Origin: a virus
Virus record (IMG/VR): IMGVR_UViG_3300018080_001728
Location: 1 to 29,483 of that record
Reading direction: 5' to 3' (one strand)
DNA: 29,483 nucleotides
In this document: one piece after another, positions 1-23,862 of the stretch
Position numbering within the stretch: position 1 is the first letter of the stretch
Layout: the number at the start of each line of letters is the position of its first letter
The notes under the pieces: model-generated
What the model was told of the DNA's origin: nothing
Databases searched by the model: none
Seen by the model: only the letters and a program-made list of their open reading frames with translations
Program-made: the position numbers and the translations under genes

Positions 1-687
1 ACAAGTGGAACAGATGGTTCATCAGGAACTAGTGGTAGTTCAGGTATCTCAGGTTCATCAGGAACAAGTGGTTCATCAGGTTCGAGCGGAACATCAGGTA
101 CTAGTGGAACTGCGGGTGCGGCAGGTTCAAGCGGAACATCAGGTGTTAGTGGAGCTAGTGGAACATCAGGTAGTAGTGGCACTTCGGGAGCCGATGGCAC
201 CTCAGGAACTTCAGGAACATCATCAGCATCCGCCCTGCAGAGTACAACAGACTCTTCGGTAGTAAGTGGAACTACAGATGAAACTATATGCGTTGATGTT
301 TCAATTCCCGCAGATACTTATTCTGTTGGTGACATAGTTGAATTGTTATTTAGATTTAAAAAGACAACAAATAATTCTTTTTCTTCCATAAGAGTTTATG
401 TAAATACTTCGGTTTCATTAACTGGTGCTACCCAAATTGCTACAGCTATTGCTTTTCAGTTTGATTATTACTCACAAGTAAGAAGGTATTTAATAATCAA
501 GGCATCGGACGACACAGAGTTAATAAATGACAGTTATGATGAGAATGATGATATAGTACAATGGCAAGATACACCAAGCAATCTAGATATAGATTGGTCA
601 GTTCAGCAATATCTTTTGATTACTATACAAAACAATGCCTCTTCTGAGAGTGCGAGGATTTCATTTTACCGACTCTTATCAACATAA
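1..687 (+). CDS. Collagen-like fibre/virion protein, 3' part (5' end outside window)
   Basis: The frame is open from base 1 to the TAA at 685-687, so the start lies upstream. Codons 1 to about 75 encode an almost unbroken Gly-X-Y repeat in which X and Y are mostly Ser, Thr or Ala (SGT, SGS, DGT units), a phage-type collagen-like triple-helix segment. It is followed by about 150 residues of mixed beta-type sequence that probably form a trimeric head domain. The closing segment (WSVQQYLLITIQNN and then an SFYRL-type end) lines up by eye with the end of the collagen-like protein at 9997-10764, so the two appear paralogous. A fibre or other surface virion role is inferred from the repeat type and from the tail-collar gene just downstream. 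The Ser/Thr density makes it a candidate substrate for the nearby glycosyltransferases. No enzyme motif is visible. Confidence 0.8.
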   Translation, partial: TSGTDGSSGTSGSSGISGSSGTSGSSGSSGTSGTSGTAGAAGSSGTSGVSGASGTSGSSGTSGADGTSGTSGTSSASALQSTTDSSVVSGTTDETICVDVSIPADTYSVGDIVELLFRFKKTTNNSFSSIRVYVNTSVSLTGATQIATAIAFQFDYYSQVRRYLIIKASDDTELINDSYDENDDIVQWQDTPSNLDIDWSVQQYLLITIQNNASSESARISFYRLLST

Positions 688-944: not shown

Positions 945-1331
945 TTATATATTATAATAAGATTTTTGTTCTATCAAATTAGATTTAGTTAAAATGTTTA
1001 TTTCTTTTTTAATTTTACTTCTGAAATCATTAAATTTATATACAGACCTGGCAATTTGAATAAATTCATCATCAAATTCTGATAAAGACTCTTTTTCTCT
1101 TATTCTTTCTTCTATATCCCATAGTTTTTTGTTGATATTAATCAACTGATTAAATAGAATCTCAAATTCAATAGGAGAGCACTCTTTTTTTATTATAGGT
1201 AAAGCATCTTTTAGAATGTCATACTCTTTTTGTATATTTTTTAATTTATCTTCATCTTTAATGTTTTCTTTTTTAATTTCCAAGATTGTTAATTTATCTA
1301 CAATCTCACCAATTGATACTTCTATTTTCAT
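945..1331 (-). CDS. DUF6165 family protein
   Basis: The 128-residue product opens with MKIEVSIGEIVDKLTILEIK, the characteristic start of the DUF6165 family, followed by a charged, mostly alpha-helical and probably coiled-coil body rich in Lys, Glu and Ile. Length fits the family. The molecular function is unknown. From memory, family members tend to sit beside glycosyltransferases, and here its start codon overlaps the stop of the GT4/TibC-type fusion by four bases (ATGA), so translation of the two is probably coupled. It is the last gene of a seven-gene minus-strand operon. I infer an accessory role for the glycosyltransferases, such as a partner or length-control subunit, but nothing in the sequence proves it. 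Confidence 0.75.
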   Translation of the reverse strand: MKIEVSIGEIVDKLTILEIKKENIKDEDKLKNIQKEYDILKDALPIIKKECSPIEFEILFNQLININKKLWDIEERIREKESLSEFDDEFIQIARSVYKFNDFRSKIKKEINILTKSNLIEQKSYYNI

Positions 1332-3433
1332 GGTAATAAATGTTGTATTTTTTCTATAACCATTTGTGAGGTTATTGATTTATGACACTCAAAATGTCTT
1401 TCAGTTCCTTTATGTTCGGGACACCAATTCCAATCCCCTTTATCAAATTTAAACATTGGGTTATTCCAACATCCATGACAAACAAACGTGTTTGTTATTC
1501 TTGTACAATTTGAAACAAATTCATGGTCTTCTTCCGTGAAATTAGAAATCATTACCACATGTTTACCTAACCCCCAAGTTAACCAAGATAATCCACTTGA
1601 TAGACCAATAAAGAATTCACTATGATAAATTGTGTTCATAGTATTTTCAATTGACGTGTCTTTTAATTGGGTAACCCCATCAATACGTTCACCATTTTTG
1701 GATACATTAACAACTCTATAACCTTTTGATTTTAAATAGTTGACTAATTCTGACCAACCGTTTGGATTGTTCCATAGTTTTAATCCTGCGGTAGACTCAT
1801 TAGCGATTGTTATATATTTTTCCTCAAACAATCTTTGTTTAGGTTCAAAATAAATTCTTGGTTGTATCTCTTTAAATTCTAAACCTAATATATTGGTTAT
1901 TGCTTTTTGTAATGGTATTGTACTTGGTAATACAGGTTCTTTGTTATTATCATAAAACCACCCTACTCTATACATAGCTATTAAATCATTTACAACATTA
2001 CCTGGCTCAATAAATTCAAGTTCAGGGTATACCTTTTCAAATAATTTATTCCAAAATGTGGAAACAATAACATGACAATTATGTTTGTTTTTAAATTCTA
2101 AAACATATGGTATCCAAGAAATACTATCACCTAATGATTTGGAATCAAATGATACAAAAACTCTTTTACCCGTAAAATTTAATTTATAGTTGTAAATCAA
2201 TTCATCTTCGTCATAAACTTTAATTGTCCAATCTGTAAAATATTCTCGGTTTAGTTTTGACCACATGTTAGCTTTAAGCTTCGTGGTATATACCAACACA
2301 TCCCCATCATAAAACTCAACACCATACTCTTTGTCTGAATCACCCAAAATTTCAAAAAACGGATTATTAACAAAATGGATATTATATGATAAATTACGTT
2401 CTTTTTTAATATCAACTTTTCTGGTATTTTCTATATTATCAATTAATAAATTTTTGGTTTCTTCAGAATTATATTCTTTTTTTATAATACCAACCAATTT
2501 ATACATTTTTAATAACCTGTTGGTTATAACACCCCAATCAAATTTTTCTCTACTTTTATTTGTTTGGTCGACATAAAAATTATAATTGTTAATTATTTCT
2601 TGAATTGAGTTCGCAACCGAATCACTATTTCTTTCGGTAACAATCATTCCGTGTATTTTTTGTGTTCCGTCATAAGTCCCAACAATTGGTAAATTACATG
2701 AAATCGCTTCAAGTAATGTTAAGTTTGGGTGACCCGCCTCTAATGAAGATGGGTGTAGGAATATTGAATGGGTTTTATATAATTCTAAAATACTTTCTTC
2801 ATTTGGGTTATCAAATAATAATGTTAGTTTATCATAATCCAATAAATCTAAATGGTGTTGAAAAAAGTTTTTGTTATTTTCTGGTCCTGATACTGTTATA
2901 GGTAAATTTAATTTTTTGGCGGCTTCAATTGCGTATCTAAACCCTTTCCTATCATAAGACGAATCACCACCAATTCCGTTATTTGCTAAACATAATAATT
3001 TGTGCTCTGTTCTATATTGATTATCTACTTTAAAGAAGTTTGTATTTACTCCATGAGATAAATAAAATAACTTGTCTGTTTCTTCAAAATAATCCACCAA
3101 ATATTCGGCATGACAAAAAGATACAATTGATTTTTTAATTGCTTCTAAATTTTGTTTGTAATTAAATGAATCTTTGCCGTTATATACAACATGGTGGTCG
3201 TGTAATGAGAATATATAAGGTATTCCCATTTTATGAGCTTCAATAGCTAAATTGGCAATATGAATGTGAACAATATCACCTTCTTGATAATTAACTTCAT
3301 TTAAATATTTTATATGGGATTCAACCCCCATTGATTGTAAATTTTGGTGATATTCCCAAATTATCTTCTCAACCGCACCCCAACCATTAGGTGGGATTGG
3401 TATCATTCCTGGTGTTACATGGATTACTCTCAT
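1328..3433 (-). CDS. GT4 glycosyltransferase fused to TibC-type O-heptosyltransferase
   Basis: This 701-residue protein has three parts. Residues 1-320 form a GT-B glycosyltransferase of the GT4 type, with a Gly-rich N-terminal loop (PNGWGAVEKI) and the nucleotide-sugar site around E232-E242 (EAGHPNLTLLEA). Residues about 350-420 are a beta-rich domain. Residues 420-701 match the autotransporter strand-loop-strand O-heptosyltransferase family (Aah/TibC): KSLGDSISWIPYV, a WNNPNGW segment, and GLSSGLSWL near the donor site. The C-terminal four cysteines C652, C655, C671 and C683 are spaced CX2C-X15-C-X11-C, which to my recollection equals the iron-finger of TibC. Characterised members transfer heptose from ADP-heptose to Ser residues of autotransporter repeats. 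It overlaps its operon neighbours by 1 and 4 bases. Protein glycosylation of Ser-rich phage proteins is inferred. The acceptor could still be a glycan. Confidence 0.85.
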   Translation of the reverse strand: MRVIHVTPGMIPIPPNGWGAVEKIIWEYHQNLQSMGVESHIKYLNEVNYQEGDIVHIHIANLAIEAHKMGIPYIFSLHDHHVVYNGKDSFNYKQNLEAIKKSIVSFCHAEYLVDYFEETDKLFYLSHGVNTNFFKVDNQYRTEHKLLCLANNGIGGDSSYDRKGFRYAIEAAKKLNLPITVSGPENNKNFFQHHLDLLDYDKLTLLFDNPNEESILELYKTHSIFLHPSSLEAGHPNLTLLEAISCNLPIVGTYDGTQKIHGMIVTERNSDSVANSIQEIINNYNFYVDQTNKSREKFDWGVITNRLLKMYKLVGIIKKEYNSEETKNLLIDNIENTRKVDIKKERNLSYNIHFVNNPFFEILGDSDKEYGVEFYDGDVLVYTTKLKANMWSKLNREYFTDWTIKVYDEDELIYNYKLNFTGKRVFVSFDSKSLGDSISWIPYVLEFKNKHNCHVIVSTFWNKLFEKVYPELEFIEPGNVVNDLIAMYRVGWFYDNNKEPVLPSTIPLQKAITNILGLEFKEIQPRIYFEPKQRLFEEKYITIANESTAGLKLWNNPNGWSELVNYLKSKGYRVVNVSKNGERIDGVTQLKDTSIENTMNTIYHSEFFIGLSSGLSWLTWGLGKHVVMISNFTEEDHEFVSNCTRITNTFVCHGCWNNPMFKFDKGDWNWCPEHKGTERHFECHKSITSQMVIEKIQHLLP

Positions 3434-4122
3434 TAATTATTCCATTTTTTTATAAATTTATAATAATCTTCTTCCATTTTTTTGTTCCTATCTTCATCAA
3501 CATTTGATTTAAAAAAGTTAATATTACCTATGTGTAAAGTCAATGAATCTCTCACCACAGCATGTTTAATTCCTTTTGATTCTATTGTTTTAGCATAATC
3601 ATTGTCTTGGTAATAAAAATCAAAATTTTCATCCCATGGATAAATCTCATCCCAAACTCTTTTTCTCATAACTAACGACCAACCCATTACCGATTCAGTA
3701 ACTCTATAACTTTCAAAATAATCATCTCCACTGTCAAAATGGTCACCATATATTGTTGAGTAGAATAAAACTTCTTTTGGTGAAAAAGATTCAATGTCAG
3801 GTCTTTTATTATAGATTTCCAGTATTTTTGAAAACCACTCTCTTTGATATATTACATCATTATTTGTTATTAAAACCCAATCTGAAGTTAAATATTCATT
3901 TGCAATATTTAAATATTTGTTATAATTAAACTCTTCTTCGGGTCTTATATAAACATCAACATTTTCATATGTAAAATTAGTTTCTTTATTACTTTCTAAA
4001 AGTATTATATTAAATTTTACATTTTTTTCAGAGATACGTACTGATTTAATAACCCTATTGGTTACTTCATACATACTATTATCGTATGTATTGGTTAAAC
4101 AAATAACATCGATTGACATCAT
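3433..4122 (-). CDS. GT2-like glycosyltransferase (GT-A fold)
   Basis: The 229-residue product fits a single-domain GT-A glycosyltransferase. It opens with a beta strand (IDVICLTNTY), has a YNKYLNIANEYLTSDWVLITNND stretch in which the acidic NND at residues 87-89 stands where the metal-binding DXD usually lies, then a GWSLVMRKRVWDEI acceptor-side segment. A PWDENFDFYYQDNDYA segment contains the acidic residues typical of the catalytic base region, followed by the common LTLHIG histidine. Donor and acceptor cannot be read from the sequence. Two adjacent ATG codons (4122 and 4119) could start it. It overlaps the methyltransferase stop and the next gene start by one base each, so it belongs to the same operon. 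Confidence 0.75.
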   Translation of the reverse strand: MMSIDVICLTNTYDNSMYEVTNRVIKSVRISEKNVKFNIILLESNKETNFTYENVDVYIRPEEEFNYNKYLNIANEYLTSDWVLITNNDVIYQREWFSKILEIYNKRPDIESFSPKEVLFYSTIYGDHFDSGDDYFESYRVTESVMGWSLVMRKRVWDEIYPWDENFDFYYQDNDYAKTIESKGIKHAVVRDSLTLHIGNINFFKSNVDEDRNKKMEEDYYKFIKKWNN

Positions 4123-4667
4123 TATTTTTTAATTCCCCAAAAATATAAATCACATGATGTTGGTTCATATTCAAAATTATATGAACTAAAAATATCATCT
4201 ATATTTATTACAGCTCTAATATCATCTTCGGTTAAATTTTTGTAATAGTTTGCCCATTTTTCATCAATATTAGATAAAAACGGAGCATCACTTGGTGTTG
4301 ACCTTAATGTACCATGTTCGGGTCTACCTGTTGATGCACAAGTAAAAATCATCAAACCGTTAGATTTTAACAATCTAATCATGTTTTGTATTGTTCTAAC
4401 GTAATACATGTCATGTTCAAAACATTCTGACGACATTACAACATCGAACAAAAACCCTGAATCATACAAATGACCAGGACAAACCACATTTACATTATTA
4501 CCTTCAGAAAGGTCAACACCAACGTAGTAAAACGGGTGTTTAAAAAAATGTTTAGTGTTACCATTAATGTCTAATGAACCTATATCTAATACTTTAACAT
4601 CTCTAAAGTATTTTGGGAAAGTTTCTTTAACCCTCGAAAAAAAATTTTGTTGTTGTCCGTGTGACAT
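4122..4667 (-). CDS. Class I SAM-dependent methyltransferase
   Basis: This is a 181-residue Rossmann-type methyltransferase. Motif I is VLDIGSLDINGN (from residue 27), the acidic end of strand 2 is GVDLSEG (D52), and the motif IV region is FDVVMSSECFEHD (residues 74-86). That is followed by IRLLKSNGLMIFTC, the usual strand-5 region. It resembles the small-molecule or sugar methyltransferases that accompany glycan clusters. There is no nucleic-acid recognition domain, and the DPPY/NPPY motif of DNA-adenine methyltransferases is absent. Its place between two glycosyltransferases, with a one-base gap on one side and a one-base overlap on the other, suggests that it O-methylates or caps the glycan. 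Capping of a sugar chain is inference. The substrate is not readable from the sequence. Confidence 0.8.
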   Translation of the reverse strand: MSHGQQQNFFSRVKETFPKYFRDVKVLDIGSLDINGNTKHFFKHPFYYVGVDLSEGNNVNVVCPGHLYDSGFLFDVVMSSECFEHDMYYVRTIQNMIRLLKSNGLMIFTCASTGRPEHGTLRSTPSDAPFLSNIDEKWANYYKNLTEDDIRAVINIDDIFSSYNFEYEPTSCDLYFWGIKK

Positions 4668-4668
4668 A

Positions 4669-5658
4669 TTAATTAAAATCTATTATTCCTTTATCTATTA
4701 AGACTTCTAATAAGTCTTTGTTTAAAATATACGTTTTATTTTCTTGGAGTATATCATTATCATAGACTTCTATTGATAATGTATCACCAATTAAATCAAA
4801 TACGTTGTAAAACCAACTATGTTGGTTTATTACAACATCATTTATTACTTCGTTATTTAATTTTATAATAATTCTGTTTGAGTTATCGGTTACCCTGTTA
4901 CCGTAACAAAATAAAGTTGGTTTGTCGGGATTCTTACTGTTATAAACTAAATCTATTAATAGATTCTCAACCCTAAAAATATTAATTAAACTATTATTAA
5001 AATATTCATATGAATGTTGATTAATTATTAAAAAATCATTCTCATATTTAGATAAGCTATTATAAAACCCCAATTCCAAACTAACAGGATATGATGGGTT
5101 TGAAAAATACTCATCCTCGGTTATTGGTAGTTTAAAAACCTCATTAAAATATTTTGGTGAGACACCAAAAAGTTGTGTTTCATATACGTAAGAACCATTA
5201 TCTTTATACGTTTCAGGTTTAAAGAAAACACATTTTTTATTTCCCTCATTCATTAATTCAACTAACTCATTAAGTTTCATAACATCGGTTTCTGAAAACC
5301 AATTATCATTTTCAATAAAATAAACAAAATCATAGTTTTTTATTTCTGAAAATTTAAAAGCGTTATTCATACTTTGACTAATAGGTAGAGCGTGTCTTGA
5401 GTTATTAAATCTAACTAAAAAATTCTCAGTTCTAAACCAAAAATAAGTCGTTTTATCTAAAGGTGTTAGTGTTTGATTTTTATCGTAAATGTAATAATCT
5501 ACCATTTCTTGTATGTCTGTCAAAACAGGATAATGTGTCACCAACATAAAATCAAAACCCAAAGATTTTAAAGGACTTAACGATATAAGTTGATTCAATA
5601 AAACTTCGTGTTTTTTAGGTGTATTAGGATACGCACCAATTATTATTAACTTTTTCAT
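4669..5658 (-). CDS. GT-A-like glycosyltransferase with C-terminal beta domain
   Basis: The 329-residue protein starts with KLIIIGAYPNTPKKHEVL and a MLVTHYP...VDYYIYDK block. This block is clearly paralogous to residues 326-380 of the 894-aa protein encoded just upstream in the operon (IGTYPNT, MLVSHYPV, VDYYIYDK). FVYFIENDN at residues 112-119 provides the acidic cluster expected for metal and donor binding in a GT-A fold. Residues about 245-325 form a small beta-rich domain (IKLNNEV, SIEVYDNDI, TYIL) that also occurs in the 894-aa and 701-aa proteins. I do not recognise the exact family, so glycosyltransferase is inferred from fold features, paralogy and context. It overlaps the preceding gene by one base. 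Confidence 0.6.
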   Translation of the reverse strand: MKKLIIIGAYPNTPKKHEVLLNQLISLSPLKSLGFDFMLVTHYPVLTDIQEMVDYYIYDKNQTLTPLDKTTYFWFRTENFLVRFNNSRHALPISQSMNNAFKFSEIKNYDFVYFIENDNWFSETDVMKLNELVELMNEGNKKCVFFKPETYKDNGSYVYETQLFGVSPKYFNEVFKLPITEDEYFSNPSYPVSLELGFYNSLSKYENDFLIINQHSYEYFNNSLINIFRVENLLIDLVYNSKNPDKPTLFCYGNRVTDNSNRIIIKLNNEVINDVVINQHSWFYNVFDLIGDTLSIEVYDNDILQENKTYILNKDLLEVLIDKGIIDFN

Positions 5659-8342
5659 TATTTTCTAAATGTTTTAAATTCTTTATCAATCAAAGATACA
5701 CCATCAACCTGTGTTGTTATTCTATTTTTAATAATACCCATATTTAAACCATACTCCGCAAATATGGTATTGAAATATATGTCCGCGGCGTCCCATTTAT
5801 GTTTTCTTAATTGGTCATGTAAAAACTTTTTCATTTTTTTGGGAAACATAATACATTGTAACCCTATAATTTTGTCTGTTATAAACAACAAGTCTTGATT
5901 GGGTATTTCTCGGATTACGTTTGATTGGCGCCAACCAAAGTCTAATGTTTTTGTATCCCCAAATGAATAATAATGAATATCATTTTCATTAATTAAATCA
6001 CAAGATTGTTTAACTTTATTAATAAACTCCTCAATTGGAACTTCAATTAAACAGTCTCCTTCACAAACAATTAAAAAATCTAAATCATCATCAAATTCTG
6101 ATAGTATTCCATTTTTAAATGATTCAAAACAACCGTAATGTGCAGGTGTTAAAGCGGTACCTAAAAGTTTTGTTGTATCCTCATTAAATAATTCCATTGA
6201 GACACATTGAGGTCTCATACAATTATGTGATGGTGGTAAAGATTTATATATTTCGTTTGTGTGTAAAACATATTCAATACCATGAGGAATTATCTGTTGT
6301 AGTGAGTTTCTTGATAATTGTTCCCTTTCATCATTATTTGTTGTCTGTAAATGAACCAATTTAATTTTTGGTAATTTTTTATGTTTAAACCACCCATTGT
6401 TTTTATATGAATTAATGGTTTCATTATTTAAGATATATTTTTCATTTTTATAGATAATATTATCCTCATAAAAAGTTAATCTTAATTCTATTTCAGAACC
6501 ATTGTATTCTAATTCCTTTAAAAACTCTCTTTGTTCCAATATGTTAAATTTTTTAGAAAAGGTTATATCACCATTTTCAATCACCTCAAAACTAACACTT
6601 CTATTATCTAAATTATATGTATAAAAATAAAACATCCATTTATTTTCAGTGTGTTTTACTGGTAATATTGAATAGTATTCAGAATTTGATGAAACACCTT
6701 TACCTGAATTTATTAGGAAAGTATTATGTTGGTTAGTTATTATTTTAATATTATTTTCTTTTGAGAAGACATTCCAAAAAAAGTCTTCTAAGAAATTATG
6801 ACAATTCATTTTAATACACTCCTGTTTATATTCTTCAGGTGTTCTAATATTTTGTAATTTTTCTAAAAAATAATTAGTTTTAAATGTCATAGCGGTTGTC
6901 TCAATACCACGACCTAAATCAGTAGGTAAAGTACATAAATAAGCATCATACACTTCAACCTCGTTAAATGAATTATTAACATATTCAATGTCGTCAGGAT
7001 TTAAAATTACATCATATGTTATGTAAAAAACCTTATCAAAATTTAAATCTTTTGCTGATTTAAAACCATTAATTAAGTTAGTTAAAACAGGTAAAGACTG
7101 ATTAGTATTCTTTAACCCATTTATGTTTATCTCAACATCAAAGTTGTGTTTATAGTTGTAAAATTTTGTATAATATGAGTGTTCGGTATTCGGATTATAC
7201 TTATCATAAATGTAGTAATCCACTTTTTCCTGTATCTCAAAAGAAACAGGATAGTGTGAAACCAACATTATTTTTCTACCCAATTTTTTAACCGATTCAA
7301 TACATTCTAAAGTTAATTTTTCTCTTGATTTAGTATTAGGGTATGTACCAATCATTACTAATTCATTAGTATAAAATTCTTTATTTGGTTTAAGAATTTC
7401 TAATAATTTTTCAGCATCTTTTTTTGCGTCACCCGTTAAAAAAGTTATGTTATCATAATCATCGTATTTACCACAGTACACATCTAAATTGTGCATCATC
7501 ATAGGTATTTTATATTCTAAAGCTTCTTTTAAAGCGATTGGATTTAATTCTTTGTTGTATCTATCGCCTTGTGATGCAAAGAAGAACAAATCAGACGCTT
7601 CTATGAAACTTTGAACGTCTTTTCTTTCACCCCAAATGACACAATTATCAGGTTTATTATTTATTAAAGGTTCCCAATATTCTCTAAAATTATCAGCTTG
7701 ATTACCTAAAAAATGAAATTTAATTTTATAATCTTTAAGTAATTTTGCAATTTCAAATATATAACCTTGATTTTTTCTTCGTGTAAATAAACCAACATTT
7801 AAAACATGTTTATATGACGGGTCAAAATTTAAAATGTGTTGATTTTCTTTTTTATTTTTAATTTTATAGTCTACAGGATATTCAACAATTTCATAAGGGA
7901 TATCATATATTGAATATCTAAACGCATTAAAAGCACTAACAAAAACAAATTTATCAGGAAACCATCTTTTTTCATTTACAGGAAAACTTGAGTCATGTGT
8001 TGTCTCTAAAATTGTGTAGTTTCTTTTTTCATTATAGATTTGTTTGGTTATTTCATCAGACATAAAAAACTCAGGAAACTCCTCCATAGAAACAACTTCA
8101 GGTTTAAACGCCTCAATAATTTTTAATATGTCACTTTTGTCATCACCCAATGATATAAAATTTTCATTAAGTAGTTCTTGTATTTGGCTTCTTTGAATGA
8201 CATAAGTCCAAGCGACAAAACTATGTTCAACACACATTATGTCATATATGTCCATTAATAATTTTATTTTATTTAATGTTACTTGTGGTCCCCCACCAGT
8301 ACTTAAATGAGGTGTTATTATTAATAATTTTTTTTTATTCAT
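5658..8342 (-). CDS. Multidomain glycosyltransferase (GT4 + GT-A-like + beta domain + GT25-like)
   Basis: This 894-residue protein appears to hold three transferase modules. Residues 1-325 look like a GT4-type GT-B enzyme: STGGGPQVTLNK glycine-rich loop, VLNVGLFTRRKNQGYIFE, FLGNQ and a KELNPIALKEALEY nucleotide-sugar segment. Residues 326-560 are paralogous to the separate 329-aa protein encoded next. Residues about 565-640 are the beta-rich domain shared with the 701-aa and 329-aa proteins. Residues 655-894 resemble GT25-type (LPS or collagen galactosyl-) transferases: LGTALTPAHYGCFESFKNGI followed by DFLIVCEGDCLIE, where EGD would be the DXD equivalent. The fusion suggests stepwise assembly of a short glycan by one polypeptide. 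It overlaps the heptosyltransferase gene by four bases. Donor sugars are unknown. Confidence 0.75.
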   Translation of the reverse strand: MNKKKLLIITPHLSTGGGPQVTLNKIKLLMDIYDIMCVEHSFVAWTYVIQRSQIQELLNENFISLGDDKSDILKIIEAFKPEVVSMEEFPEFFMSDEITKQIYNEKRNYTILETTHDSSFPVNEKRWFPDKFVFVSAFNAFRYSIYDIPYEIVEYPVDYKIKNKKENQHILNFDPSYKHVLNVGLFTRRKNQGYIFEIAKLLKDYKIKFHFLGNQADNFREYWEPLINNKPDNCVIWGERKDVQSFIEASDLFFFASQGDRYNKELNPIALKEALEYKIPMMMHNLDVYCGKYDDYDNITFLTGDAKKDAEKLLEILKPNKEFYTNELVMIGTYPNTKSREKLTLECIESVKKLGRKIMLVSHYPVSFEIQEKVDYYIYDKYNPNTEHSYYTKFYNYKHNFDVEININGLKNTNQSLPVLTNLINGFKSAKDLNFDKVFYITYDVILNPDDIEYVNNSFNEVEVYDAYLCTLPTDLGRGIETTAMTFKTNYFLEKLQNIRTPEEYKQECIKMNCHNFLEDFFWNVFSKENNIKIITNQHNTFLINSGKGVSSNSEYYSILPVKHTENKWMFYFYTYNLDNRSVSFEVIENGDITFSKKFNILEQREFLKELEYNGSEIELRLTFYEDNIIYKNEKYILNNETINSYKNNGWFKHKKLPKIKLVHLQTTNNDEREQLSRNSLQQIIPHGIEYVLHTNEIYKSLPPSHNCMRPQCVSMELFNEDTTKLLGTALTPAHYGCFESFKNGILSEFDDDLDFLIVCEGDCLIEVPIEEFINKVKQSCDLINENDIHYYSFGDTKTLDFGWRQSNVIREIPNQDLLFITDKIIGLQCIMFPKKMKKFLHDQLRKHKWDAADIYFNTIFAEYGLNMGIIKNRITTQVDGVSLIDKEFKTFRK

Positions 8343-9280
8343 ATTATTTCCATTATTTTTTCAATTACTTTATCTACAGTTGGGTGACACTCGAAAGTAG
8401 GTTTATTCTCTAAACATTTAATTAATAGTGGAACTCCCTGTATGTCACCCCATTCTTTCACACCATATTTCATATCTGATGCACACATTAAAGGACAAGT
8501 CCCACCAACATAATGGTATTTATATTGCTGACCACCATTTCTATATGGTGCTCTAAATTCAGGATTAATTGAACTACCTAATTGAATGATTTCACAATCA
8601 GTAGTTCCTGCCAAATGTAATAAACCTGAATCCATTGTAATAAAACAGATTGATTTATTAATTAAATGCCAACTTTGACTTATAGTTGTTTTGTTCATTA
8701 AATTTAAACCTTTCTTAATTTTAAAATTAAAAATCGGTTTACTAACATTGAAAAATCCTGTTTCACTAGAATCTTTACCTATAGACACTACACTAATACC
8801 TTTGTCATTTAATTTTTCAGTTAGTGTCATCCAATTCACTGCGTCCCAAGTTCTACTTGGCCAATTTTGAACAGGGTGAATTAAAACATATTTTTCAGGT
8901 AAACCATCAATGGGTTCAAATTCGTCAGGAATATAGTCTAGTTCCATCTCATCTTTAGTCAGCATAAATCCTAACTTAATTGCGTGATATTGTCTAATAT
9001 CTATGGTATTGTGTTTAAACTCAATACCACGATTATTTTTTTGACCATTTTCGTAAAATGAATTATGGGTTATAAAATGTTCGTTTATATAATCCATATT
9101 AATAGAGTTGGACTCATAAACTTTTTCAACATACGGATTATGTTTAAATAAGTCAGGATGTTTGGTTACAACAACTACTTTTGAATTGTATGAATGATAT
9201 ATTTTTCGTAGTACTGGTGTTGAACAAAGAGTATCTCCAATAGCATTTGCTTCACTTAAATTTAAACATATCTTTTTCAT
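8339..9280 (-). CDS. GT9 heptosyltransferase-like glycosyltransferase
   Basis: This 313-residue protein matches the ADP-heptose:LPS heptosyltransferase superfamily (GT9, GT-B fold). It has an N-terminal AIGDTLCSTPVLRKI, where the GD pair is the family's catalytic Asp region, a YVLIHPVQNWPSRTW acceptor/donor segment, and FITMDSGLLHLAGT near residues 213-226 for donor binding. Its C-terminus carries four cysteines (C262, C266, C289, C298; CX3C-X22-C-X8-C) followed by a Val-Ile-rich helix. This recalls the iron-finger of TibC-type enzymes but with different spacing. It is the first gene of the minus-strand operon and reads away from the virion-protein gene at 9373. LPS heptose transfer and protein O-heptosylation are both possible. 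Its relatives in the same operon make the second attractive. Confidence 0.8.
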   Translation of the reverse strand: MKKICLNLSEANAIGDTLCSTPVLRKIYHSYNSKVVVVTKHPDLFKHNPYVEKVYESNSINMDYINEHFITHNSFYENGQKNNRGIEFKHNTIDIRQYHAIKLGFMLTKDEMELDYIPDEFEPIDGLPEKYVLIHPVQNWPSRTWDAVNWMTLTEKLNDKGISVVSIGKDSSETGFFNVSKPIFNFKIKKGLNLMNKTTISQSWHLINKSICFITMDSGLLHLAGTTDCEIIQLGSSINPEFRAPYRNGGQQYKYHYVGGTCPLMCASDMKYGVKEWGDIQGVPLLIKCLENKPTFECHPTVDKVIEKIMEII

Positions 9281-9360
9281 ATGGGAAATATAAACAAAAA
9301 AGAGTAAAATTACATATCAAGTTTAATCAATAATCTATTTATGGTAAACCACATCGTGTT

Positions 9361-9370
9361 ATATTTATAA
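9361..9370 (+). promoter_or_regulatory. ATATTTATAA motif before gene 9373
   Basis: The motif lies two bases before the ATG at 9373 and matches similar motifs before other genes here (14509, 15142, 23041, 26642, and 19658 on the minus strand). Read on the other strand it is TATAAATAT, a T4-type late promoter core, which would face the glycosyltransferase operon starting at 9280. Promoter function is inferred from recurrence only. Confidence 0.35.
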
Positions 9371-9372
9371 GA

Positions 9373-9960
9373 ATGTATACCATTGAGATTACATCATTTA
9401 CTGGTACAACTCCGTTTAGTGTTACTATATGTGATATGACACTAACATATTGTTATGTTGTTGCAACAGGTGTATCGTCTGTTCCTGTCACTGTAAATGT
9501 ACCAATGCCGTTAACAGGGGCACCACAATTAATTGTTAAATTGGTAGACGCTAATAATTGTGAATATTTTCAATTATACAAATGTATTACTCCAACACCA
9601 ACTCCAACATTAACACCGACACCAACACCTAGCATGGTGATAGAATGTAATTGTATTACTTTTGATAATTCATCGGGTCTTACAGACTATAATATAAGTT
9701 TAACTCAATGTGATGGTACTATTCTGTATACAACAATTAACGCTGGTGTTATATCATATTATTGCGGTAAATTACCAAGTGCTGACCCTGAGGTAGTTAT
9801 TTCAATAGGATTGCCTTGTGTATCTAATAGTTGTCCCGCACCTGAATTAACTCCGACACCAACACCTACACCATCAAATACGCCTGGAATACCATTCTTA
9901 TTACAGGAAAATGGTTTTTATATTTTACAAGAGGATGGATTTAAGATAAAAATAACATAA
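9373..9960 (+). CDS. Thr/Pro-linker virion protein
   Basis: The 195-residue protein has two Cys-containing beta-type segments, each followed by a Pro-Thr linker. Residues 1-75 (ICDMTLTYCYVV and an NNCEYFQLYKCI end) are followed by TPTPTPTLTPTPTP. Residues about 90-155 (ECNCITFDNSSG and an SNSCPAPE end) are followed by TPTPTPTPSN. The protein ends in two copies of a seven-residue motif (LLQENGF, ILQEDGF). Two similar Ig-like or lectin-like modules joined by O-glycosylatable linkers are inferred. I do not recognise a named family. It sits between the glycosyltransferase operon and a collagen-like gene, which suggests a surface virion protein. Confidence 0.7.
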   Translation: MYTIEITSFTGTTPFSVTICDMTLTYCYVVATGVSSVPVTVNVPMPLTGAPQLIVKLVDANNCEYFQLYKCITPTPTPTLTPTPTPSMVIECNCITFDNSSGLTDYNISLTQCDGTILYTTINAGVISYYCGKLPSADPEVVISIGLPCVSNSCPAPELTPTPTPTPSNTPGIPFLLQENGFYILQEDGFKIKIT

Positions 9961-9999
9961 ACTAATATTTACTAATAACAACTAATAACTACTAATATG
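9961..9999 (+). repeat. Four 10-nt tandem repeats ACTAATANNN in a gene leader
   Basis: ACTAATA occurs at 9961, 9971, 9981 and 9991, exactly one DNA turn apart. The fourth copy runs into the ATG at 9997. The repeat fills the whole gap between the stop of the previous gene and the start of the collagen-like gene. Confidence 0.8.
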
Positions 10000-10764
10000 T
10001 CAGATTTACCAATATCATCGTTACCTTCCGCATCCACAGGGTATTCAGATTCCTTAATGGTTATCGTTAATTACAATCCAATTGCCACTGGTAGAACAGA
10101 GTCCATACCTTTTTCAGCAATAACTGCATCTACAATAGGTACATCGGGTACAAGCGGTGTTGATGGAACTTCAGGAACCGATGGTAGTAGTGGGACAAGC
10201 GGTTCATCAGGTACTGCAGGAACAAGTGGAACATCACCATCAAGTCCATATCCGTATGTTTATGGTCTGTTTACTCAAACAGGTGACACGTCAATATTAA
10301 GTGGTACGACAGAACAATCTATTGTTGATGGTGGTTTAGGTGTATTAACCGTAGGTGCTAACCAATTTCAGATAGGTGATACTTTTCACGCCGAAATCAA
10401 AGGTCATTTATCAAATAATAATGATTTTTTACAATTTAGAGTTAAATCTGATAGTGTTGTTTTAGCGGACAGTACATCAATTCAGTATAACACTAGTGGT
10501 GACGAAACACTTATGACATTAGATATATACTTTATAATACGACAAACAGGTACAACAGGAAATGCTGAAATATTAACAAAAGGATTTTTAAGTACTATTA
10601 AAAATTCTAATTTTAGTGTTAATGGGTACTCATTTGAAAGTACTAATAACACTACTTTTGATACCACCATTGAAAATACTTTAGATGTTACCATTCAGTT
10701 TGATGCAGAAGACCCGCAAACTTATATTTATACCGACTTTTTTATTTTAAACAAACTTTATTAA
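9997..10764 (+). CDS. Collagen-like virion/fibre protein
   Basis: The 255-residue protein starts with a short N-terminal segment (ISSLPSASTGYSDSLMVIVN and then an IPFSAI stretch) of the type that anchors phage fibre or appendage proteins to the virion. Residues about 47-75 are a Gly-X-Y collagen-like stretch of GTS, GTD, GSS and GTA units. The remaining 175 residues form a beta-rich head domain, with an LDVTIQFDAEDP region and an FFILNKLY end, that parallels the end of the protein at 1-687. Such proteins are usually trimers. The next gene, 35 bases downstream, encodes a GT60-type polypeptide GlcNAc-transferase-like protein, so this Ser/Thr-rich protein is a good candidate for its substrate. 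The substrate link is inference. Confidence 0.8.
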   Translation: MSDLPISSLPSASTGYSDSLMVIVNYNPIATGRTESIPFSAITASTIGTSGTSGVDGTSGTDGSSGTSGSSGTAGTSGTSPSSPYPYVYGLFTQTGDTSILSGTTEQSIVDGGLGVLTVGANQFQIGDTFHAEIKGHLSNNNDFLQFRVKSDSVVLADSTSIQYNTSGDETLMTLDIYFIIRQTGTTGNAEILTKGFLSTIKNSNFSVNGYSFESTNNTTFDTTIENTLDVTIQFDAEDPQTYIYTDFFILNKLY

Positions 10765-10799
10765 GTCTATTTTTATTTTATATTTCAATAAAAAGAAAT

Positions 10800-12047
10800 A
10801 TGAAAATATTCGTCCAAATCGCGGCATATAGAGACCCACAACTTATCCCAACTTTAGAATCAATGTTAAAATACGCTAAGTTTCCAAAAAACTTACGTAT
10901 AGGTATTTGTCGTCAGTATCATCCTGAAGATGGATTTGACAATTTAGATAAATACAGAAAAGATAAAAGGTTTAGAATCTTAGATGTTTTATATTCAGAA
11001 TCAAAAGGTGTTTGTTGGGCAAGAAATCAAGTACAACAACTTTACGATGGTGAAGAATATACTTTACAGATAGATTCTCACATGAGATTTGAAAAAGAGT
11101 GGGATGTAGAATTAATCAAAATGATTAAACAACTCCAAGATAAAGGATTTGAAAAACCTTTACTAACAGGTTATGTATCATCTTTTGACCCCGACAATGA
11201 CCCTGCAGGTAGAGTTAAAGAGCCTTGGAGAATGTCTTTTGATAGATTTATCCCTGAAGGTGCGGTATTCTTTTTACCCGAAACAATACCTGGTTGGCAA
11301 GAATTAACCGAACCCGTACCATCTAGATTTTATTCAGCACACTTTTGTTTTACTTTGGGGCAATTCAGTACTGAAGTACAGCATAACCCTGAATACTATT
11401 TCCACGGTGAAGAAATTTCAATTGCAGTTAGAGCCTATACTTGGGGTTATGATTTGTTTCACCCGCACAAAACTTTGATTTGGCACGAATACACTCGTAA
11501 GGGTAGAACCAAACAGTGGGATGATGATAGACAATGGGTTGATAAAAATAATCATTCACACTTAACAAATAGAAAACTATTTGGTATGGATGGTGAAACC
11601 CAGGAAGGACATGACGGACCTTATGGTTTTGGCCCTGTTAGAAGTTTAAAAGATTATGAAATTTATGCGGGATTAAAATTCTCAAGAAGAGCGGTACAAC
11701 AATATACCTTAGATAAAAACTACCCTCCAAATCCAACAATTTATAACACTGATGAAGAATGGGAAGCAAGTTTTGCGTCCATATTTAAACACTGTATTGA
11801 TATTTCATTTTCACAAGTTCCCGAAGATGATTATGATTTTTGGGTTGTTGCATTTCATGATGAAAAAGATGAAACTATCTTTAGAAAAGATGCTGATTTA
11901 AATGAAATAAAGAGAATGAAAACAGACCCTGACGGATATTGTAAAATTTGGAGAGACTTCCAAACGATACATAAACCAAAGTATTGGGTTGTGTGGCCAC
12001 ATAGTATGTCAAAGGGGTGGTGTGATAGAATAACTGGTAATTTATAA
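10800..12047 (+). CDS. GT60-type polypeptide GlcNAc-transferase-like protein
   Basis: The 415-residue protein matches the GlcNAc glycosyltransferase family (GT60) typified by the Dictyostelium Skp1 hydroxyproline GlcNAc-transferase. The start IFVQIAAYRDPQLIPTLES, the GVCWARNQVQQLYDGEEYTL block, and the DXD-equivalent IDSHMRF (D92, H94) are all family features. FHGEEISIAVRAYTWGYD (residues 201-218) and the downstream WHEYTR (H229) complete the GT-A active site. Characterised members add GlcNAc to hydroxyproline or hydroxyamino acids of proteins, not to lipids. Residues beyond about 260 are an extra C-terminal part of unclear role. It lies directly behind a collagen-like gene, and triple-helical Gly-X-Y proteins are classic glycosylation substrates. 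The true acceptor here is unknown. Confidence 0.8.
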   Translation: MKIFVQIAAYRDPQLIPTLESMLKYAKFPKNLRIGICRQYHPEDGFDNLDKYRKDKRFRILDVLYSESKGVCWARNQVQQLYDGEEYTLQIDSHMRFEKEWDVELIKMIKQLQDKGFEKPLLTGYVSSFDPDNDPAGRVKEPWRMSFDRFIPEGAVFFLPETIPGWQELTEPVPSRFYSAHFCFTLGQFSTEVQHNPEYYFHGEEISIAVRAYTWGYDLFHPHKTLIWHEYTRKGRTKQWDDDRQWVDKNNHSHLTNRKLFGMDGETQEGHDGPYGFGPVRSLKDYEIYAGLKFSRRAVQQYTLDKNYPPNPTIYNTDEEWEASFASIFKHCIDISFSQVPEDDYDFWVVAFHDEKDETIFRKDADLNEIKRMKTDPDGYCKIWRDFQTIHKPKYWVVWPHSMSKGWCDRITGNL

Positions 12048-12056
12048 CATATTAAA

Positions 12057-12809
12057 ATGTATAATGTTATCATATCACTAACAACTATTCCAAACAGGTT
12101 AATATCCCCGCATCAAAATGGAGGTGTAAGACCTGTTATAGACCTATTAGTTAATCAGGATTACCCTTACTATGAAATACATTTTAATATACCTTATGTC
12201 AATAAAAAAACTAATGAAGAGTATAAATTGCCTAATTGGTTATTGGACTATGGTGATAATAAATTAAAAATTTTTAGAACTGATGATTATGGTTCCATGA
12301 CTAAACTTTTACCAACTATTGAGCGTGTAAATGACCCTGAAACAATAATAATTACCGTTGATGATGACTTAAATTATGAGAATGGGTTTATTGAATACCA
12401 TTTAATGAAACGTGAGGTTTACCCCAATTCAGCACTAGGATTTGCAGGTATTGGTAGTATAAATGGGTCTTGTCATTTTTGCACAACTTTAAAAGAAGAT
12501 ACGAGAGTAAAAATTATTGAGGGATACAAAACGGTTTCATATAAAAGAAAGTTCTTTGGTGATGACTTTAAAGAATTTGTTTTAGGTAATTGGAATGATG
12601 ATATGATAATATCAGCATACCTTGGTAAAAATAATATTCATAAAATTGTTATGAACTATAATCGAGATACTGATTTTAGACCACGAGTTGAGTCTTTTCC
12701 TGTAATAGGACATTTACCAAATGAAAGTGGTGGTTGTAATATTTTTAGAACGGAGCAAGTACCCGACAACCACCAACACTACTATAAATTAGGTTATTTA
12801 GAAAAATAA
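12057..12809 (+). CDS. GT-A-like glycosyltransferase
   Basis: The 250-residue protein shows a GT-A pattern. It starts with VIISLTTIPNRL, has a YPYYEIHFNIPY segment and a DYGSMTKLLPT segment typical of sugar-nucleotide-binding folds, then IIITVDDDLNY, where D102-D104 form the metal-binding acidic cluster. GNWNDDMIISAYLG carries further acidic residues near the expected catalytic base. I recognise the general type but not a named family with a known substrate. It lies nine bases after the GT60-type gene, and its stop abuts the ATG of the HtrL/YibB fusion gene at 12810, so the three are probably one transcription unit. Confidence 0.65.
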   Translation: MYNVIISLTTIPNRLISPHQNGGVRPVIDLLVNQDYPYYEIHFNIPYVNKKTNEEYKLPNWLLDYGDNKLKIFRTDDYGSMTKLLPTIERVNDPETIIITVDDDLNYENGFIEYHLMKREVYPNSALGFAGIGSINGSCHFCTTLKEDTRVKIIEGYKTVSYKRKFFGDDFKEFVLGNWNDDMIISAYLGKNNIHKIVMNYNRDTDFRPRVESFPVIGHLPNESGGCNIFRTEQVPDNHQHYYKLGYLEK

Positions 12810-14483
12810 ATGAGTATTACATTAGTTACTGGTTTATGGAATATAGGTAGGGGCGAACTATCTGAAGGTTGGTCACGTTCTTATCAACATTATTTGGATA
12901 AATTCAATCAACTTTTAGATACACCAAATAATATGATAATATTTGGTGATAAAGAACTACAAGAATTTGTTACAAAAAAAAGAAAATCAGAGAATACTCA
13001 GTTTGTAGTTAGAGATTTAAGTTGGTTTAAAAATAATGAGTTTTATAATAAAATTCAAAAAATAAGAACTAACGAAAATTGGTATACTCAAACAGGGTGG
13101 TTGGTTGATTCAACCCAATCTAAATTAGAAATGTATAATCCTTTGGTAATGTCCAAAGTATTTTTATTACATGATGCAAAGATTTTAGATAAATTTAATT
13201 CAGAATATCTTTTTTGGATTGATGCTGGTTTAACAAATACTGTTCACCCTGGTTATTTTACGCATGATAAAGTTTTTGAAAAATTACCAAAATATATTAA
13301 TAAATTTTCATTTGTGTGTTTTCCATATGAGGCGAATACTGAAATACACGGGTTCAATTATAATAGGTTAAATGAGTTATCGGGTAATAAAGTAAATAAA
13401 GTTGCTAGAGGTGGATTTTTTGGTGGACCTAAAAACACAATATCAGATATTAATTCAATTTATTATGGTTTATTGTCAACAACCCTTGATGAAGGTTATA
13501 TGGGAACTGAAGAATCAATCTTTAGTATTATGTGTTATAAACATTCTGATATTATAAATTACTTTGATATTAACGGTGATGGTATGGTTTGGAAATTTTT
13601 TGAGGATTTAAAAAATGATTCATTGGTTATTAAATCTGAAAAACCCAAAGAAATTGTTAATAACAATTTGGACACCAACAAAGTTGGTTTATATGTAATT
13701 ACATTTAATAGTCCAAGTCAATTTGAAACTTTAATAAAATCCATGTTAGATTATGATTCAGATTTTATTGCCAAAACAAAAAAATTCTTATTGGATAATT
13801 CTACGGATTTATCAACAACACCAAGATATATTGAGTTGTGTGAAGAATATGGATTTGAACATATTAAGAAAGATAATATTGGAATTGTTGGTGGTAGAGT
13901 ATTTGTTGCGGAACATTTTAACGAAACTGATTTAGATTTCTATTATTGGTTTGAGGATGACATGACTTTTTATGATAAAAAAAATGAGATATGTAAAAAT
14001 GGGTTTAATAGATATGTTTCAAATTTATATTTAAAATCTTTGGAAATAATTAAAAAAGAAAATTTTGATTTTCTTAAATTAAATTATACAGAATTTTATG
14101 GTGATAATGGTGTCCAGTGGTCTTGGTATAATCTGCCACAGGATAAACGAAAAGAATTATTTCCTGAAAAACAAAACTTACCCATACAAGGTTTAGACCC
14201 TAATGCACCTAGAACTAAATTTAATTCAATAAAAACACATAAAGGGTTATCATATATTGATGGTGAAATATATCTATGTAACTGGCCAATTATTCTAACA
14301 AAAAAAGGTAATTATAAATGTTATTTAGAAACAAAGTGGGCTCATCCTTTTGAACAAACCCTCATGTCTTATTGTTATCAAGAAACTGTTAAAGGTAATG
14401 TAAAACCAGGTTTATTATTACTCACACCAACTGAACATAATCGTTTTGAATTTTATTCCGCTGATTTAAGAAAAGAGTCCTAA
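12810..14483 (+). CDS. HtrL/YibB family protein fused to glycosyltransferase-like domain
   Basis: Residues 1-275 of this 557-residue protein are a full HtrL/YibB domain. It begins SITLVTGLWNIGRGELSEGW, continues with MIIFGDKEL and RDLSWFKNNEFY, then an EYLFWIDAGLTNTVHPGYF block, a VARGGFFGGPK block and GTEESIFSIM. WIDAGL and GTEES are the acidic sites expected of a transferase. In E. coli, yibB lies in the LPS-core region and its function is not established. Residues about 290-557 look like a second GT-A domain (GLYVITFNSPSQFETLIKSM, YYWFEDDMTFYD with DD at 383-384). The fusion supports a glycosyltransferase role for the HtrL domain. It ends a cluster of three glycosyltransferase genes. Confidence 0.8.
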   Translation: MSITLVTGLWNIGRGELSEGWSRSYQHYLDKFNQLLDTPNNMIIFGDKELQEFVTKKRKSENTQFVVRDLSWFKNNEFYNKIQKIRTNENWYTQTGWLVDSTQSKLEMYNPLVMSKVFLLHDAKILDKFNSEYLFWIDAGLTNTVHPGYFTHDKVFEKLPKYINKFSFVCFPYEANTEIHGFNYNRLNELSGNKVNKVARGGFFGGPKNTISDINSIYYGLLSTTLDEGYMGTEESIFSIMCYKHSDIINYFDINGDGMVWKFFEDLKNDSLVIKSEKPKEIVNNNLDTNKVGLYVITFNSPSQFETLIKSMLDYDSDFIAKTKKFLLDNSTDLSTTPRYIELCEEYGFEHIKKDNIGIVGGRVFVAEHFNETDLDFYYWFEDDMTFYDKKNEICKNGFNRYVSNLYLKSLEIIKKENFDFLKLNYTEFYGDNGVQWSWYNLPQDKRKELFPEKQNLPIQGLDPNAPRTKFNSIKTHKGLSYIDGEIYLCNWPIILTKKGNYKCYLETKWAHPFEQTLMSYCYQETVKGNVKPGLLLLTPTEHNRFEFYSADLRKES

Positions 14484-14508
14484 TAAAATTTATTTCTATA
14501 AAGCAAAG

Positions 14509-14518
14509 TATTTATAGA
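14509..14518 (+). promoter_or_regulatory. GTATTTATAG motif before gene 14531
   Basis: This is a copy of the recurring TATTTATA-type motif, 12 bases before the ATG at 14531. It lies in a 47-base intergenic stretch after the glycosyltransferase block. Promoter function is inferred from recurrence. Confidence 0.35.
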
Positions 14519-14530
14519 ATAAAAATATAA

Positions 14531-15109
14531 ATGGAATTCTTTGTCAAAAAAAACGCCACCTTACCGGTACTTAAACTTTCTGTGGTGAAAGATGGTCGCA
14601 GTGATTATAATAGTTTCATGAAAACTATTGAACTTTCGGCTATTTTCTTTTCCATGGTGGATATTGAAACGGGAATACCAAAAATAAGTTCAAGACCGGC
14701 AGGATTTGTTGAAAAGACTTTTTTGGACCCAAATGCTGAAACAGAATATTATATATATTATCAATTTACACCGATTGATACGAATAGGGTTGGTAGATAT
14801 GAAGGTCAATTTATGTTAAGAAATGATGATGGTGTTTTAATCTTACCAATCAGGGAGAAATTATTTATAAATGTGCAAGAATCATTTATCGCAGATGACT
14901 TGGAATATAATTCTTGTTATACTTCAGAATTTCCATGTTGTGTTAATGGGCCTTATACGACAACAACAACTACGGCACCATGTCCAAGTTGTCCGACATG
15001 TCCTGAACCAACACCAACTCCAATACCAACGACAACCACAACAACATTTTTTCCAACGACAACAACAACCACATTTATACCTATAACAACAACCACGACA
15101 TTTTATTAA
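14531..15109 (+). CDS. Structural protein with poly-Thr mucin-like tail
   Basis: Residues 1-135 of this 192-residue protein form a beta-rich domain (MEFFVKKNATLPVLKLSVV, MVDIETGIPKISSRPAG, RVGRYEGQFML) that resembles the N-terminal domain of phage baseplate or receptor-binding accessory proteins. Residues about 136-192 are low complexity: a TTTTTTAP tract, a Cys/Pro section (CPSCPTCPEP), then alternating TPTP and TTTTTT tracts separated by FF and FIP. The tail looks like a mucin-type O-glycosylation target. The gene sits between the glycosyltransferase cluster and DNA polymerase, with its own ATATTTATA-type upstream motif. The structural role is inferred, and no named family is claimed. Confidence 0.65.
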   Translation: MEFFVKKNATLPVLKLSVVKDGRSDYNSFMKTIELSAIFFSMVDIETGIPKISSRPAGFVEKTFLDPNAETEYYIYYQFTPIDTNRVGRYEGQFMLRNDDGVLILPIREKLFINVQESFIADDLEYNSCYTSEFPCCVNGPYTTTTTTAPCPSCPTCPEPTPTPIPTTTTTTFFPTTTTTTFIPITTTTTFY

Positions 15110-19648: not shown

Positions 19649-19658
19649 ATATAAATAT
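19649..19658 (-). promoter_or_regulatory. ATATTTATAT motif before gp13 gene
   Basis: On the minus strand, 12 bases before the gp13 ATG (19636), lies ATATTTATAT, the same motif seen before plus-strand genes. It also overlaps the last base of the stop of the dismutase fusion gene. Inferred promoter. Confidence 0.35.
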
Positions 19659-23569: not shown

Positions 23570-23862
23570 AAATAATAATAACCGAATCTCAAATAGAAGT
23601 GGTAAGACGATTGTATGAAATTGGGGAAATTATTAATGAAGTAATTACACAACTTAACAATGATATAAAGAATGGGGGGTCAGGTAATAAACCTGACAAC
23701 TTTGGAGTATATGAAAATTGGGTAGTTAATAGAGTTTCAAGATATTTTAAAAATAAAAACCCTAATATTGATTATGATAGAATAGATTTTTTAATGTTAG
23801 TTTCAGGTCAGTTTAATGGAGAACTTAGGAAAGGTTTTAATAAGGTCAGAAAGAAAAAATGA
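23566..23862 (+). CDS. Small protein with MKIIITESQI start, function unknown
   Basis: The 98-residue product starts MKIIITESQIEVVRRLYE, followed by a helical, Lys/Asn-rich body ending in a basic KVRKKK tail. The first ten residues nearly repeat those of the next protein (MKIVLTENQI), which otherwise differs. Start and stop overlap the neighbours by four bases each (ATGA), so translation is coupled. The shared leader-like N-terminus could be a targeting segment, for example for packaging into the prohead, or just a common helix. No family is recognised. Confidence 0.65.
   Translation: MKIIITESQIEVVRRLYEIGEIINEVITQLNNDIKNGGSGNKPDNFGVYENWVVNRVSRYFKNKNPNIDYDRIDFLMLVSGQFNGELRKGFNKVRKKK

Follow-up and report, generated by a model that had tools for sequence, protein, structure and literature searches.

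The window analysed here, 29,483 bases of the genome of an uncultured tailed phage (26-38% GC; positions 1 to 29,483 of IMG/VR record IMGVR_UViG_3300018080_001728), carries a cluster of glycosyltransferase genes lying next to genes for Ser/Thr-rich proteins. The analysis suggests, with a probability of about three in four, that the cluster encodes a cytosolic O-glycosylation system that acts, ahead of assembly, on Ser/Thr-rich fibre and tail proteins of the phage itself. Two enzymes carry this reading, a homologue of the GT60 polypeptide N-acetylglucosamine (GlcNAc) transferases and a TibC-type O-heptosyltransferase domain, and each is associated across phages with its own kind of repeat, Thr/Pro (T/P) tracts for the former and Ser/Thr collagen-like triplets for the latter. 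The genes most directly concerned are listed below.

1..687, plus strand: collagen-like fibre gene truncated at the window edge, 3' end only, with G-[ST]-[STD] triplets (7-222) followed by a globular C-terminus.
1328..3433, minus strand: GT4 domain (N-terminal) fused to a TibC-type O-heptosyltransferase domain (residues about 376-698); TIGR04414, 284 bits against a cut-off of 200.
9373..9960, plus strand: TP-tract protein, the proposed GT60 substrate, with TPTPTPTLTPTPTPS at 9589-9633 and TPTPTPTPS at 9850-9876.
9997..10764, plus strand: collagen-like GTS/GSS protein, repeat at 10138-10236; PF01391 at 21.6 bits (below its cut-off), tail-fibre PHROGs at about 1e-3.
10800..12047, plus strand: GT60 polypeptide GlcNAc-transferase homologue; PF11397, 218 bits against a cut-off of 21.
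12810..14483, plus strand: HtrL_YibB domain fused to a GT2-like domain (YibB-GT2), the partner of GT60; PF09612, 68 bits.
14531..15109, plus strand: virion-like Thr-tract protein with T/P runs at 14957-15100.
26688..29483, plus strand: tail sheath, recognised by its tail-sheath homologues, with a T/P insert at 27537-27644.

The TibC-type identity of the C-terminal half of the fusion protein is named with confidence from its sequence. It exceeds the cut-off of TIGR04414, the NCBIfam equivalog for TibC/Aah O-heptosyltransferases (BAHT), and aligns to the TibC structure 4rap with an E-value of 1.6e-50, the alignment beginning at TibC residue 62 and showing a gap after TibC residue about 266, near the thumb. 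The catalytic Asp is kept, SLGD436 aligning with LGD110 of TibC, and K552 is also present. The cysteines C652/C655/C671/C683 reproduce the spacing of the TibC iron finger (Cys-339/342/358/370), which is found at the exact spacing in 60 of 68 TibC-type relatives. In TibC, the D110A variant is inactive, and both the Asp and the iron-finger cysteines are required for activity (PMC4358343). An autotransporter gene, the usual neighbour of TibC, was not found in the window, where a collagen-like fibre gene stands instead.

The GT60 identity of the protein at 10800-12047 is named with equal confidence on its family score and signature motif. Its DxH motif is D92-S93-H94, and DSH is present in 114/114 relatives; DxH in place of DxD is the signature of GT27 and GT60, two families with Ser/Thr O-glycosylation of polypeptides in common (PMC7185993). 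No match to PF11397 was obtained in 14 control genomes, and a PDB sequence search with the protein returned none. The initial annotation had placed both enzymes in families with polypeptide-modifying members, and this assignment holds, as the curated cut-offs are passed and the key residues are kept.

The association of GT60 with T/P tracts was assessed from an IMG/VR scan that recovered 345 GT60 relatives, 80 of which were taken for locus analysis and fell into 62 non-redundant clusters. Gene order is kept in this lineage: tract-bearing fibre-like genes, GT60, variable small genes (usually one to several), YibB-GT2, the Thr-tract protein and PolB. Homologues of the TP-tract protein are found upstream of GT60 in the relatives. 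When tracts were scored by gene offset from GT60 across the 62 clusters, under a definition loosened before the comparison since two stricter versions missed the window's own TP protein, they were present in 37/58 gene slots at offset -1, 18/46 at offset -2 and 11/40 at offset -3. Pooled, offsets -3 to -1 hold tracts in 66/144 gene slots against 39/886 at other offsets, and 26 of those 39 genes encode the Thr-tract protein or the sheath.

Since adjacency could merely reflect a shared host-recognition island, whole genomes were compared. A test of GT60 presence and absence within the lineage was set aside for want of clear true absences; most GT60-negative contigs end upstream of PolB, and jumbo-phage and pattern-based controls were used instead. 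In the phage collection, GT60 occurs in three records only, XacN1, RAS14 and CM1, and these contain 85, 36 and 36 TPTPT codon-pattern sites, respectively, against 0-4 in 13 GT60-negative jumbo phages (190-490 kb) picked as polymerase relatives of XacN1. The reversed pattern gave 0-4 sites in all these jumbo phages. The XacN1 sites are spread over many genes genome-wide, several of them beside baseplate wedge, head completion and sheath genes. Conversely, GT60 was present in 11 of 41 IMG/VR contigs of at least 30 kb carrying (TP)4T, among the matches listed, against 0/23 random contigs, which do not reach the length of the longest pattern contigs; some of the GT60s are divergent (28-43% identity).

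The second pairing joins the TibC-type enzyme to Ser/Thr collagen-like repeats, scored where six or more Ser/Thr collagen triplets stand in a row within 10 kb of the TibC-type gene. G-[ST]-S repeats are present at 37/69 viral TibC-type loci (19/39 clusters) against 0/50 random loci, and at other control loci they number 0/160 (polymerase and sheath), 3/80 (GT60) and 4/120 (TP). In the reverse direction, a protein above the TIGR04414 cut-off occurs in 18 of 38 contigs of at least 30 kb with the (G-T-S/T)4 pattern, among the matches listed, against 0/41 random or TP-pattern contigs (p = 1e-7; like the other p-values of these association tests, it treats contigs as independent); here too the random contigs fall short of the longest pattern contigs in length. 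Only one of eight polymerase-lineage control contigs, G001, exceeds the cut-off, and it has the collagen pattern itself. A contig with TP tracts and 64 collagen-pattern matches (IMGVR_UViG_3300021598_001271, L385) encodes a TibC-type enzyme and no PF11397 protein. The initial annotation had proposed to look for co-occurrence of the enzymes and the Ser/Thr-tract proteins in related phages; this proved positive, in two specific pairings and with controls.

The closest relative of the window, a 195.5 kb contig (L523), shows the second pairing at its most extreme. The DUF6165 gene (L523:355-735), placed between the TibC-type gene and a giant fibre gene, and the TibC-type gene converge on the latter (L523:765-10796, minus strand), which encodes 3,343 residues, 2,775 of them in 925 Gly-X-Y triplets that follow one another without a break. 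Position X holds Ser or Thr in 98% of the triplets and position Y holds Ser in 91%; proline does not appear in the position counts and charge is nearly absent. If folded as a triple helix, the fibre would be about 0.8 micrometre long, and to our knowledge such a glycosylated fibre would exceed any characterised phage fibre in length. No homology was found between the C-terminus of the window's cut collagen gene and the C-terminal domain of the giant fibre, and the two are therefore equated by position and repeat type. A proline-free and charge-poor helix would need some stabiliser, and threonine glycosylation has been named as one for collagen (PMC3368898). It is tentatively proposed, as a possibility rather below even odds, that TibC-type heptosylation enables giant proline-free collagen-like fibres in large aquatic phages, with dense Ser/Thr glycosylation replacing hydroxyproline as the stabiliser.

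The layout of the window agrees with these comparisons. Seven contiguous genes occupy the minus strand from 945 to 9280 and three enzyme genes the plus strand from 10800 to 14483, with the plus-strand TP-tract and collagen-like proteins standing between the two groups; the Thr-tract protein follows the plus-strand enzymes, and the sheath with its T/P insert lies another 11.6 kb downstream. PolB, an SNF2 helicase and a contractile tail sheath are all encoded in the window, and the source is a large aquatic phage. All ten genes of the initial annotation, almost all of them for glycosyltransferases or sugar modifiers, were recovered by open reading frame and family searches. Its claim that Ser/Thr-tract genes lie among the enzymes stands in that every tract listed is present, and fails for the collagen-like gene at 1-687, which runs off the window and lies outside the interval given for the cluster. 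Homology clearly identifies only the sheath as a virion protein; the other tract proteins are virion-like by composition and position.

The tracts themselves are not products of chance composition, as the observed number of tract residues in runs of at least six was reached in 0/5,000 shuffles per protein. Their Thr codons are mixed (ACA/ACT/ACG/ACC), which rules out an origin as a simple DNA microsatellite. The Thr-tract protein is kept beside PolB throughout the lineage, and its tract varies. An alignment of 106 unique sheaths shows that the insert site (residues about 272-360) holds a T/P tract with two conserved Cys, a folded domain or a short loop. Tract-free sheaths occur in five GT60-positive contigs (G030, G031, G033, G034 and G037), and the sheath tract was rejected as a GT60 marker on this account. 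As originally put, the suggestion of the sheath insert as a substrate is unsupported; the insert may be a substrate, but an optional one.

The scheme builds on gene content, family membership, catalytic residues, the two enzyme-to-repeat associations and the lack of any transmembrane-like segment in the cluster enzymes (maximum 19-residue hydropathy 1.32). From these we infer donors, linkages, order of steps and benefit. GT60 would initiate by placing GlcNAc on Thr of the Thr/Pro tracts, and its partner YibB-GT2 would extend this GlcNAc. The TibC-type domain would move heptose from host adenosine diphosphate heptose (ADP-heptose) to Ser/Thr residues in the Gly-Ser/Thr-Ser triplets of the collagen-like fibre. 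The GT4, GT2, GT9 and GT-A-like enzymes would extend the sugars and the methyltransferase would cap them, in a set that varies from phage to phage. All steps would take place in the host cytoplasm, ahead of assembly, and the benefit would lie in stabilised and protected (protease-resistant) long low-complexity fibres and in a diversified virion surface.

The remaining genes of the cluster are the following.

945..1331, minus strand: DUF6165 protein; PF19662, 51 bits against a cut-off of 27.
3433..4122, minus strand: GT2-type glycosyltransferase; PF00535 at its cut-off, phrog_22332 (glycosyltransferase) at 1.3e-12.
4122..4667, minus strand: S-adenosylmethionine-dependent methyltransferase; PF13489, 30.9 bits, phrog_32762 at 1.3e-56.
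4669..5658, minus strand: 329-residue protein, possibly GT-A-like, with a C-terminal beta domain; AlphaFold model with a predicted local distance difference test score (pLDDT) of 89.8, compared by Foldseek.
5658..8342, minus strand: 894-residue multidomain protein, GT4 with a second copy of the 329-residue domain and a C-terminal domain; PF00534, 40 bits, the repeat being seen in the translation.
8339..9280, minus strand: GT9 heptosyltransferase-like enzyme; PF01075, 53.8 bits.
12057..12809, plus strand: 250-residue putative GT-A glycosyltransferase in the variable slot, with a DDD motif invariant in the alignment of relatives.

The methyltransferase at 4122-4667 could serve in glycan capping. 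Neither the 329-residue nor the 250-residue protein matched any family in profile searches. The model of the former resembles GT-A enzymes and nucleotidyltransferases at template modelling (TM) scores of only 0.35-0.53, and in that of the latter (pLDDT 66) only the N-terminal half looks like a GT-A enzyme or nucleotidyltransferase, with KfiA as the top Foldseek match; the low scores of the one and the low-confidence, N-terminal-only match of the other make both GT-A assignments weak. A GT25-type C-terminus, suspected by eye in the 894-residue protein, was borne out by neither family nor structure matches. The GT9 enzyme reaches only 33 bits against TIGR04414 and is without the TibC-type iron finger. 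The GT2 match of the C-terminal domain of the YibB protein comes from its bacterial homologues.

The pairing of GT60 with YibB-GT2 extends beyond the lineage of the window. XacN1 and RAS14 keep the gene order of the window, GT60 (46-48% identity) being separated from YibB-GT2 (40-43%) by other enzymes; in XacN1, a carbamoyltransferase (ORF333, L311:13409-15706) stands between the two, hinting at carbamoylated glycans. In Saprospiraceae/Bacteroidia genome contigs, GT60 (72-74%) adjoins YibB-GT2 (58-62%). The pair is carried by three Bacteroidota contigs (L433, L434 and L435), in L435 with an FkbM methyltransferase domain fused to it, and the flanks examined contain no T/P tract. Its presence in these three settings marks the pair as a conserved unit, and gene exchange with Bacteroidota suggests a Bacteroidota host. 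The moraphages, large aquatic phages of Bacteroidota hosts with four core glycosyltransferases (PMC12619734), may be the same group as the phage of the window. XacN1, a distant relative, is reported to contain at least two glycoproteins, ascribed by its authors to phage enzymes including ORF328 (GT9) and ORF334 (GT60) (PMC5852040).

Several points weigh against the glycosylation of the phage's own proteins. A sugar on any residue of this phage is a prediction. Large T4-like phages often group fibre genes and glycosyltransferases in a host-recognition island, so that adjacency is possible without an enzyme-substrate link. TibC has been shown to act on autotransporters rather than on collagen-like fibres, and its phage counterpart is gapped near the thumb. 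GT60 is missing from 30 of the 41 (TP)4T contigs, among the matches listed, so the tracts alone are not diagnostic. The contigs are also not independent, the GT60 lineage forming one group and XacN1, RAS14 and CM1 a second, with a few divergent GT60s besides.

The alternative that survives best, an unlikely one nonetheless, is that the enzymes alter the host surface (lipopolysaccharide core, O-chain or capsule), blocking superinfection or changing the receptor, and share an island with the fibres under the same selection pressure. The glycosyltransferases in pelagimyophage host-recognition clusters have been read in this way (PMC7029224), the GT9 enzyme is heptosyltransferase-like, and YibB homologues reside in Bacteroidota chromosomes. 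However, the two enzymes identified best come from families that glycosylate proteins and keep their signatures intact, each association is with a particular repeat, and the TPTPT sites of XacN1 are distributed genome-wide rather than in one island. Moreover, no lipid-carrier or membrane enzyme was found in the window, and none of its proteins matched the membrane Gtr families (GtrA/GtrB/GtrC) of phage serotype conversion.

That the tracts are plain flexible linkers and the collagen-like fibres unmodified, with enzymes co-varying with long fibres as large phages gather both, is improbable. The 13 GT60-negative jumbo phages are themselves large and have almost no TPTPT sites, and the pairings are specific, collagen repeats distinguishing TibC-type from GT60 loci. 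Pro/Thr linkers are common, and the (TP)4T contigs devoid of GT60 would fit such a role. A prophage collagen-like fibre, when produced in E. coli, folds into a stable triple helix without any glycan, but this collagen is thought to depend on proline and charge (PMC3368898), both nearly absent from the giant fibre. Hypermodification of phage DNA against restriction, a common reading that was offered first for the four core moraphage glycosyltransferases (PMC12619734) and agrees with a weak, below-cut-off TAGT match in bacterial YibB-GT2 homologues, is highly improbable, as the tract pairings would not be expected from it, the families of GT60 and the TibC-type enzyme act on polypeptides, and no hydroxymethylase or other base-modification gene was found in the window, itself only a genome fragment.

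Glycosylation of the phage's own fibres and tail, as put forward in the initial annotation, is supported by comparison and not by chemistry, through the repeat-specific pairings, the kept residues and the XacN1 glycoprotein report. As XacN1 is cultured and its virion proteomics data are public (PXD008065), re-analysing them would put the principal prediction to the test. Annotations usually make phage glycosyltransferases modifiers of DNA or of the host surface (PMC7029224, PMC12619734), and no paper linking GT60 or TibC-type enzymes to phage tracts was found in the open-licence literature. As far as the literature was searched, the two enzyme-to-repeat pairings, the TibC-type enzyme with giant collagen-like fibres, and the GT60 and YibB-GT2 pair shared by phages and Bacteroidota are new. 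Two enzyme types that each predict the repeat type of a substrate provide a rule open to testing in hundreds of uncultured phages (345 GT60 and 69 TibC-type relatives). If the rule is true, many large aquatic phages would be glycoprotein particles, with effects on adsorption, stability, decay and recognition, and phages would be a source of polypeptide O-glycosyltransferases working in the bacterial cytoplasm.

Elsewhere in the window, the gene at 19658-21196 (minus strand) encodes an Fe/Mn superoxide dismutase (PF00081, PF02777) with a long C-terminal region ending in GSKADM...CQIKP, a stretch that resembles a PD-(D/E)xK nuclease core; this fusion gene is kept beside SNF2 in many relatives. 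An L5 gp82-like protein (23859-25364, plus strand; PF25735) has a similar C-terminal stretch, GSKMDR...FQIKP, and the two proteins may have a nuclease-like domain in common. Its neighbour at 23566-23862 (plus strand) and the gp82-like protein have near-identical short starts, MKIIITESQI and MKIVLTENQI, respectively.

Among known systems, the TibC/AAH autotransporter heptosyltransferases share the sequence family, the catalytic Asp and the iron-finger Cys spacing with the window enzyme (PMC4358343), which differs in its GT4 fusion, its phage origin, its collagen-like fibre neighbour and the gap near the thumb. The protist GT60 polypeptide alpha-GlcNAc-transferases share PF11397 and the DxH motif; in contrast, the phage and Bacteroidota members pair with YibB-GT2, and their activity and acceptor are putative. 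The chlorella virus PBCV-1 likewise encodes glycosyltransferases for its virion proteins, and its capsid glycosyltransferase 2p6w is among the fold matches of the 329-residue protein, a similarity of fold only (TM 0.36-0.53) and to a eukaryotic virus. The Xanthomonas phage XacN1 and the Stenotrophomonas phages RAS14 and CM1 have GT60 and TPTPT-rich genes in common with the window lineage; unlike it, all three are without a TibC-type match and they infect other hosts, and the main text of the XacN1 report does not tie the enzymes to T/P tracts (PMC5852040). A further parallel is that of mycobacteriophages Che8, Corndog and Myrna, in which, according to later accounts of Freeman et al. 2023 (PMC12363180, PMC12619734), a phage glycosyltransferase modifies the phage's own structural proteins. 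As in that type of virion glycosylation, the phage-encoded glycosyltransferases of the window adjoin structural genes. The mycobacteriophage targets are, in the same accounts, the capsid and the tail tube, whereas T/P tracts and collagen-like fibres are proposed here as the targets of GT60 and TibC-type enzymes.

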